Part shown: positions 23,873 to 63,045 of the stretch, in pieces
How the letters are laid out: the number at the start of each line of letters is the position of its first letter
How positions within the stretch are numbered: position 1 is the stretch's first letter
Assembly: GCA_004292955.1 (NCBI GenBank)
Contig: RDXX01000018.1
Location: 1-64,000 of the forward strand
Direction of reading: 5' to 3'
From: Oscillatoriales cyanobacterium
Lineage (GTDB): Bacteria; Cyanobacteriota; Cyanobacteriia; Cyanobacteriales; Microcoleaceae
Length of the DNA stretch: 64,000 nt
The notes under the pieces: generated by a model
What the model was told of the DNA's origin: nothing
The model's input: the letters and a program-made list of their open reading frames with translations, nothing else
Databases searched by the model: none
Position numbers and translations under genes: made by a program

Positions 23873-24064
23873 AGAAGGAAGAAGGAAGAAGGAAGAAGGA
23901 AGAAGCAAGAAGGAAGAAGGAAGAAGCAAGAAGGAAGAAGGAAGAAGGAAGAAGCAAGAAGCAAGAAGGAAGAAGCAAGAAGCAAGAAGGAAGAAGGAAG
24001 AAGCAAGAAGGAAGAAGGAAGAAGGAAGAAGCAAGAAGCAAGAAGGAAGAAGGAAGAAGGAAGA
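23873..24064. repeat. Heptamer STRR, about 27 units of AGAAGGA/AGAAGCA
   Basis: Uninterrupted 7-bp periodicity read directly. Confidence 0.97.
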
Positions 24065-28620: not shown

Positions 28621-28768
28621 AGTAATGGGTAATGGGTAATTGGTAATTGGTAATTGGTAATTGGTAATTGGTAATTGGTAATTGGTAATGGGTAATTGGT
28701 AATTGGTAATGGGTAATTGGTAATTGGTAATTGGTAATTGGTAATTGGTAATTGGTAATTGGTAATTC
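28621..28768. repeat. Heptamer STRR (TAATTGG/TAATGGG)n
   Basis: About 20 tandem 7-bp units between rsbR and rsbS. Confidence 0.95.
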
Positions 28769-36399: not shown

Positions 36400-37386
36400 T
36401 TATCGAGAAGGATTTGCTTTCTCCGGTTCGGCTTTTTCGGAATTAGCTTTCTTAGGATTAGGTTTTTCGGAGCTTTCTTTTTCGGGATTGGCTTTCTTAG
36501 AAGTTGCTTTCTCCGGTTCGGCTTTTTCGGAATTGGCTTTCTTAGAAGTTGCTTTTTCGGCTGTTGCGGGAGTTGGCTCTGGGGGAGGTGGATTTACTGC
36601 TGATTCTTGAGCGTAAAGCAGATATTTTTGATACTCGATTACTTTTGTCTGAGCTAGTTCATGGTTGGCGCTGGACACGGGTACTCTTCTCATCAACGAT
36701 ACCGCTTCTTGCCAGCGATCGACAACGATCGTCCAATCTTCCTTCGTTTTTGCCGATCGCCCTAACTCTGCTGCTTTGAGGGCGCTGTTAACGGCTTCTC
36801 GAAAGGTATCCGGTACTCTTGCTACATTGGCAGTTTCATCTGGATTCTTCAGAGCAGTTGCTGGCGGCTCGTTTAACATCTTACTGACAAATGCCACCAC
36901 GGCGATCGCCAACAAACCCGTTACCAGCCCGACGACAATGAAAGTCGATCGCAATCGGTTCTCAAATGCAGCCAATTCCGGCGATTTCTCCTCATCCATA
37001 TCTGTACTCTCTCTTTCTGTGCGATCGTCCATATTAGCAATAGCAAGATTTTGCACTGATTCTCCCGCAAAGCTTTGTGGTTCCAAAATGCTGCTCTCCA
37101 AACTAAACTCTTGACTCCAAGCAGCCCCAATCTCACCGCTTTCTCGCCCCTCAACCTTCACTTTGCGAATCGAATTCGGCTGCAAATCCGTCAGTTTTTC
37201 ACGGACAAAATCAACTAATGTATCTTCTATCGGTAGTTGCTCTGCCTCCAGAATTACATCCAAACAGTCGCCGTCGAGATTCGCGGAGGCTGCGATCCCT
37301 TCAGATGGCAACTGGCTGTTGAGCCAAGATGCGATCGCCTGTGGATTTCCCTGCTTGGCAAGTTCCTGAAAATTAAGCTCTGTCAT
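36400..37386 (-). CDS. Membrane protein with C-terminal K/E/A/P-rich repeats (EKANSEKAEPEKATSKK...)
   Basis: Likely start MTELNFQELAKQGNPQAIASWLNSQL at 37386; the longer listed ORF runs into an STRR (37405..37495). One TM 'TFIVVGLVTGLLAIAVVAFVS'. Confidence 0.75.
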   Translation of the reverse strand: MTELNFQELAKQGNPQAIASWLNSQLPSEGIAASANLDGDCLDVILEAEQLPIEDTLVDFVREKLTDLQPNSIRKVKVEGRESGEIGAAWSQEFSLESSILEPQSFAGESVQNLAIANMDDRTERESTDMDEEKSPELAAFENRLRSTFIVVGLVTGLLAIAVVAFVSKMLNEPPATALKNPDETANVARVPDTFREAVNSALKAAELGRSAKTKEDWTIVVDRWQEAVSLMRRVPVSSANHELAQTKVIEYQKYLLYAQESAVNPPPPEPTPATAEKATSKKANSEKAEPEKATSKKANPEKESSEKPNPKKANSEKAEPEKANPSR

Positions 37387-47699: not shown

Positions 47700-47775
47700 C
47701 CAATTACCAATTACCAATTACCAATTACCAATTACCAATTACCAATTACCAATTACCAATTACCAATTACCAATG
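47700..47775. repeat. STRR (CAATTAC)n abutting the trmJ start codon
   Basis: 7-bp units read directly. Confidence 0.95.
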
Positions 47776-61772: not shown

Positions 61773-62561
61773 ATGAGCAGATTTATTTTAGTTTTTGACA
61801 TTGATGGTGTGGTGCGGGATGTGTCCGGTTCCTACCGAAGGGCGATCGCAGATGCGGTAGAACATTTCACGGCTGGTGCTTTTCGCCCGAATTCGATCGA
61901 TATCGACTCTCTGAAGTCTGAGGGTGTGTGGAATAATGACTGGGAAGCGTCTTTGGAGTTAGTTTGCCGTTATTTTGATGGAATTGGGCGATCGCGAAAT
62001 CAACTCGATTTCAAATATGACGAATTAGTCGCTTTTTTCCAAAGTCGCTATCGCGGGAATGACGATAAAAATTGGACTGGTTACATTTGTGACGAACCGC
62101 TGCTGTTAAATCCAGCTTACCTGGAAAATCTAACAATTGGAGGCGTTGCTTGGGGATTTTTTAGTGGCGCGATGCACGATGAAGCAGCTTATGTTTTGGA
62201 AGGGAAACTCGGCTTAAATTCCCCCGTGTTAGTCGCGATGGAAGATGCACCGGGAAAACCAGATCCGACTGGACTTTTCTCGACAATTGAACAGTTGGAA
62301 AATCGGCACGGTTTAGAAAGCAATTTGCCCGTGATTTATGCGGGAGATACAGTTGCCGATATTTACACCGTGGTGAAGGCGCGGGAATTGCAACCGAATC
62401 GGATTTGGCTGGGTGCAGGAATTTTGCCACCTCACGTTTTGGATGATTCTGTTCGCTGTGAAGCGTATGCTGCGGGGCTGAAAAAAGCTGGTGCTGCGGA
62501 GATTTTTAGGAATATCGAGGAGTTGAATGCTGCACGAATTGGAGAATTATACGGCGGTTGA
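61773..62561 (+). CDS. HAD family hydrolase
   Basis: 'ILVFDIDGVVRDVSGSYRRAI' DxDG motif, 'AGDTVADIYTV'. Confidence 0.88.
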   Translation: MSRFILVFDIDGVVRDVSGSYRRAIADAVEHFTAGAFRPNSIDIDSLKSEGVWNNDWEASLELVCRYFDGIGRSRNQLDFKYDELVAFFQSRYRGNDDKNWTGYICDEPLLLNPAYLENLTIGGVAWGFFSGAMHDEAAYVLEGKLGLNSPVLVAMEDAPGKPDPTGLFSTIEQLENRHGLESNLPVIYAGDTVADIYTVVKARELQPNRIWLGAGILPPHVLDDSVRCEAYAAGLKKAGAAEIFRNIEELNAARIGELYGG

Positions 62562-63045
62562 AACCGCGTCGGTACATTGGAGAATTAGACGGCGGTTGAA
62601 ACCGCGTCTACACCAACAATGTCTGCCTCCGCAGACTTAAGAAAGAGGGCGGTTGAAACCGCGTCTACACCAACGATGTCCGCTCAGACGGCGGTTGAAA
62701 CCGCGTCTACACAAACGATGTCCGCCTCCGCGGACTCAAGAAAATAACATAATTTTAACCGTTTTATCTTCAACCTGCGGAGGCAGGTTTGGTTTGTGTA
62801 GACGCGGTTTCAACCGCCGTTTAATCTTCAACCCGCGGAGGCGGGTTTGGTTTGTGTAGACGCGGTTTCAACCGCCGTTTTATCTTCAACCTGCGTCGGC
62901 AGGTTTGGTTTATGTAGACGCGGTTTCAACCGCCGTATAATCTTCAACCCGCGGAGGCGGGTTTGGTTTGTGTAGACGCGGTTTCAACCGCCGTCTAATC
63001 AACCGCCGTCTAATCAACCGCCGTCTAATGAACCGCCGTCTAATC
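62553..63045. repeat. Repeat family A mega-array: 4 forward + 4 inverted copies, then four tandem AACCGCCGTCTAATC units
   Basis: Direct reading; the first copy overlaps the HAD gene stop codon. Confidence 0.95.

Follow-up and report, generated by a model that had tools for sequence, protein, structure and literature searches.

The window, by which we mean the whole 64,000-nucleotide stretch of DNA analysed, carries a gene for a HAD-like hydrolase, whose protein scored 28.6 bits against PF00702 (cut-off 26.4). The gene is followed by an array of repeat A, in which forward units come first and inverted 58-bp units follow, up to about position 63045. The features of this region are listed below.

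61773-62561, forward strand: HAD-like hydrolase gene, 262 aa (PF00702; taken from the ORF list)
62538-62570, forward strand: copy 1, last HAD codons plus hairpin A, ATTGGAGAATTATACGGCGGTTGAAACCGCGTC, 32/33 identical to copy 2
62553-62570, forward strand: repeat A core GGCGGTTGAAACCGCGTC, first hairpin of the array, folding at -6.2 kcal/mol
62571-62575, forward strand: unrepeated filler GGTAC between the copies, the same in the sister genome G017
62576-62608, forward strand: copy 2, tail plus hairpin A, ATTGGAGAATTAGACGGCGGTTGAAACCGCGTC, 32/33 identical to copy 1
62591-62725, forward strand: forward repeat A units with cores at 62591, 62648 and 62690, including a 42-bp tandem unit
62759-63000, reverse strand: inverted repeat A units, a 58-bp tandem array of about 4.2 copies
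62984-63045, reverse strand: 15-bp tandem remnant units, TCAACCGCCGTCTAA

The stop codon of the HAD gene (TGA, 62559-62561) is located inside the first hairpin A and is supplied by repeat A, and in the orthologue L033, which lacks repeat A, the C-terminus continues as ...GELVK before the stop. The two tail copies recur with a period of 38 and differ at 1 base of 33. As the first-pass annotation had noticed, the end of the gene was thus duplicated together with the hairpin containing its stop codon, and this duplication is real. The duplicated unit consists of 12 bp of flank plus hairpin A, present twice, as in tandem REP/REPIN units, and the GGTAC filler is short unrepeated DNA of the kind found between the units of REPIN clusters. 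The right-hand junction of copy 2 (GTCTACAC..AAC) is that of the single-copy state in relatives.

The core of repeat A was detected in 150 exact copies throughout the 7.29-Mb genome and repeat B in 179, compared with 0 for the reversed control of each. The hairpins of both repeats fold, and the two are high-copy dispersed extragenic palindromes like REP/REPIN sequences; the list of positions repeatedly shows a forward A core and a reverse one at a distance of about 110 bp. A Y1 transposase gene (C17:29603-30046; L071:15704-16147) has a repeat A array on either side, as RAYT genes have REPs, and its own stop codon is inside repeat A. The homologue in the relative G027 (C9:2054-2473), 95% identical, also has A cores on both sides, at 1842 and at 2568 and 2653. 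Such a placement is rare: of the 1960 genes called, 4 had repeat A within 300 bp at either end. The presence of repeat A on both sides of an IS200-like Y1 transposase in two genomes indicated that it is probably a REP-like family. The C17 protein passed the IS200/IS605 model NF033573 (70.4 bits, cut-off 55) and failed the RAYT model NF047646 (26.6 bits, cut-off 80). Among the relatives, G017, G004, G014 and G020, like the genome studied (G000), are rich in A and possess a Y1 homologue of at least 73% identity; G010, G025, G024 and G001 are rich or moderate in A without a close homologue, and G023 and G027 have few A copies though a homologue is present. As the RAYT cut-off was failed and the abundance of A did not closely track the transposase, we regard repeat A as REP-like and not as a proven REP/RAYT system. 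By reading, two of the three other Y1 genes in the fetched DNA adjoin different palindromic repeat families. The Y1/RAYT-type genes L195:16821-17267 and L161:5893-6342 are each beside a palindromic family of their own (AGAAACCGGGTTTCT type and GCGAGCGGGGACGCTCGC type, respectively). It was also observed that repeat A (GGCGGTTGA or a close variant) is the source of the stop codon in several genes, with altered C-termini (window 62553-62570, C86:58568-59251 and C3:58469-59254).

The HAD orthologues were compared in 28 genomes of the same genus; the comparison across relatives covered three loci, namely HAD, C9:14432 and C21:25510. The closest relative G017 (protein 95% identical) has the same duplication with the same GGTAC, and differs from G000 at the TATAC/TAGAC base of copy 2 and in having more 58-bp inverted units in the array than the window. 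G004, G014, G020 and G025 have one HAD tail leading directly into hairpin A, indicating that the one-tail state is ancestral among the repeat-bearing relatives. In G001 and many others, the gene has a different C-terminus and no repeat A on its 3' side. The array was also found enlarged with the tail not copied: G004 has three 57-bp units at the HAD end, and in G020 and G025 an unrelated spacer is followed by a second hairpin. Judging from these sequences, the HAD duplication is one event, which would have occurred in the common ancestor of G000 and G017, the closest relative sampled. That the HAD tail was copied several times independently was rejected, the event being single and common to the two genomes.

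The frequency of tail copies was determined in 2.42 Mb of sequence, corresponding to a third of the genome, in stretches picked largely for their A/B content and not at random. Genes were called by a home-made procedure (ORF plus hexamer score), the tail test was applied to the 3' ends of genes of at least 100 aa, and an end was assigned to A/B when a core was located within 400 bp. A tail copy was present at 11 of the 246 gene ends beside A/B, compared with 6 of 1019 elsewhere (2/447 with other high-copy repeats and 4/572 with none; Fisher p about 4e-4 and 6e-4). Four of the 11 were ORFs themselves reading into the repeats, and a hand count of clean cases gave 7/246 for A/B versus 3/1019 (p=7e-4). 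These values supersede a first count of 14/256 versus 13/1039, since several matches in it were ORFs reading into repeat arrays. The genome-wide scan suggested in the first-pass annotation thus gave the anticipated enrichment of gene-tail duplicates at A/B arrays, about 6- to 10-fold, indicating that hairpins or a hairpin-specific enzyme do contribute. Chance similarity was also considered for the HAD copies and rejected on the basis of the exact copy numbers of the core in the forward and reversed searches and of a mispaired control, in which tails compared with the downstream DNA of other genes gave only 4 matches in 980.

Two further loci in the window had been grouped with the HAD case. 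The copy at 36400 is real and short: it matches exactly over 19 bp, is situated between two repeat B units and derives from an internally repetitive tail. The locus at 99 supports the grouping weakly, because its duplicated tail closely resembles the segment 2055-2169, which is tandem there without an A or B hairpin; a directed process was not borne out at either locus. The tail in question (99-190) is that of the sulfotransferase ORF at 99, and the tandem at 2055-2169 is near the second ORF at 2191. Outside the window, tail duplications without A/B were found at C4:32692 (38 bp of tail) and C62:108225, as well as in the orthologues of C21:25510 in Tychonema strains (L237, L239). The duplication at C21:25510 itself is common to the sister genome and absent in relatives without the repeat B array. 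At C9:14432-15346 (L067, L201-L205), a 78-bp palindromic insert in G000 and G001 lies between two copies of the tail, a 56-bp direct repeat that includes the stop codon; in G004 and G010 there is a single tail and no insert. This locus looks like an insertion with a long target duplication. A similar tail-element-tail order, without a second copy of the element, was found at C35:28041, C40:11178 and C56:29218.

Locus-unique duplications were detected in 71 of 196 intergenic regions with A/B (36%) compared with 156 of 1351 without (12%), corresponding to an odds ratio of 4.4 (p=3e-16). Of 126 A/B duplications, 81 had the core within the unit that was copied; the copies were separated by 1-20 bp in 19 of the 126 and by no gap in 50. 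The first-pass annotation had explained the tail copies by a directed expansion, in which the 5' side of the hairpin, i.e., the end of the upstream ORF, is preferentially copied, possibly via RNA such as the 3' end of an mRNA. Three apparent cases within one window, the enrichment at A/B gene ends and the excess of 3' over 5' tail duplications (18 versus 4 regions) speak for this explanation, but such an excess is also expected if duplications at gene starts disturb promoters. The duplications in A/B regions were entirely intergenic in 67 regions and reached a 3' tail in 12, so that flanks other than ORF ends were duplicated more often, and the tail-reaching ones numbered 19 against 46 expected by random placement under a crude null. 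For co-directional genes, the duplicated flank was on the upstream-ORF side in 14 A/B cases and on the other side in 14; when all high-copy repeats were included, the numbers were 24 and 17 (p=0.35). With the crude null and home-made gene calls, these results run against a bias of tail copying to ORF ends, and the relatives enlarged the HAD array without the tail. A process aimed at ORF ends was therefore rejected by the placement and polarity tests, which have already largely refuted directed expansion. A directed or RNA-templated process is not supported, nothing pointing to an RNA template, and we consider it very unlikely as the origin of the HAD copies.

Another explanation is that the element was inserted, either by transposition or by patch-type repair of a staggered break, leaving direct repeats of 20-60 bp of the target. 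The filled and empty sites at C9:14432 and the similar structures at C35, C40 and C56 agree with such an insertion. At HAD, however, the gap between the copies is only 5 bp, and repeat A predates the duplication, as the four single-tail relatives already have it. Y1 transposases of the IS200/IS605 type are not known to leave target duplications, which also counts against this route, and insertion is an unlikely origin of the HAD copies. A broader proposal, that some Microcoleus palindromic repeats enter sites while duplicating 20-60 bp of the target and that the HAD tail copies are a related product, is also unlikely; if true, REP-like elements would have an unusual way of entering new sites, by insertion or repair, as at C9:14432. 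The copies might also have arisen by unequal recombination or gene conversion between A units, which would have moved a tail-bearing unit into place with no slippage. The numbers of the 58-bp and 57-bp units indeed vary between close relatives, and the base by which G017 and G000 differ in copy 2 fits gene conversion, but recombination between A units cannot create the first tail copy, because the tail is outside every A unit in the single-copy relatives; as the origin of the duplication, this exchange is hardly probable.

We consider it highly likely that the HAD case is a single, ordinary tandem duplication of about 38 bp at the DNA level that reached into the end of the gene. Its left edge would have fallen by chance in the last HAD codons and its right edge just after hairpin A. 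A junction with a few bases of filler and no obvious long homology is consistent with an illegitimate event. REP-like palindromic intergenic DNA may generally gain tandem duplications of the repeat plus its flank, in which hairpins probably stall replication and promote slippage or template switching, and the number of units may be altered later by unequal exchange. Slippage or template switching at the hairpin, the cause suggested in the first-pass annotation, thus stays plausible, while its supposed aim at the end of the upstream ORF is not supported, the duplicated sides being evenly divided. Against plain slippage, the tail-element-tail structures at C9:14432, C35:28041, C40:11178 and C56:29218 are not given by it directly. 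A duplication across the 3' boundary keeps the first copy and the gene intact, so that tail copies would be tolerated and survive. In the literature on filler-DNA repair and slippage, the parallels found were eukaryotic only.

The architecture of the HAD unit has a published counterpart in the REPIN clusters of P. fluorescens SBW25 (Bertels and Rainey 2011, PMC3116915). In these clusters, each tandem unit consists of the REPIN with a flank on its 5' side and a second, shorter flank. Neighbouring units are usually separated by a few bases that are not repeated, and the authors inferred a second, cluster-forming mechanism (PMC3116915). The HAD unit likewise has a flank plus REP in tandem with a short spacer; unlike in SBW25, the flank includes the last codons and the stop region of a gene, and the cyanobacterial repeats are unrelated in sequence. 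As this arrangement was described in 2011, the proposal of a hitherto undescribed phenomenon was not upheld. The GTAG- and CGTC-tagged REP families (Di Nocera et al. 2013, PMC3733652) are short high-copy palindromes located mainly downstream of genes, often as inverted pairs, and this predominance downstream of coding regions explains why the flanks are so often gene ends. On reading the sequences, repeat A has CGTC just after the hairpin and repeat B has GTAG just before it, in likeness to these families, but the CGTC of repeat A partly pairs with GAC whereas the published tags are unpaired; no CGTC repeats were reported for cyanobacteria in that study (PMC3733652). The C17 Y1 gene between repeat A arrays resembles RAYT genes with flanking REPs (Nunvar et al. 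2010, PMC2817692), and differs from them in the score of its protein below the RAYT cut-off and in the several A-rich relatives without a close homologue.

The HAD gene, with a stop codon derived from a repeat and another end in use in relatives without that repeat, illustrates how a duplication in intergenic DNA rich in hairpins can extend into the end of a coding sequence and remodel the C-terminus. The origin of tandem REP clusters, open since 2011, becomes testable by the comparison of empty sites in about 30 Microcoleus genomes, and the apparent insertion with a long target duplication at C9:14432 deserves a separate study. Other tandem structures were also observed. At C62:25732, an 81-bp tRNA-like sequence is duplicated with a period of 147, and long 7-bp tandem arrays, common in the intergenic DNA of the window, are present at 23873-24064, 28622-28767 and 47700-47774.
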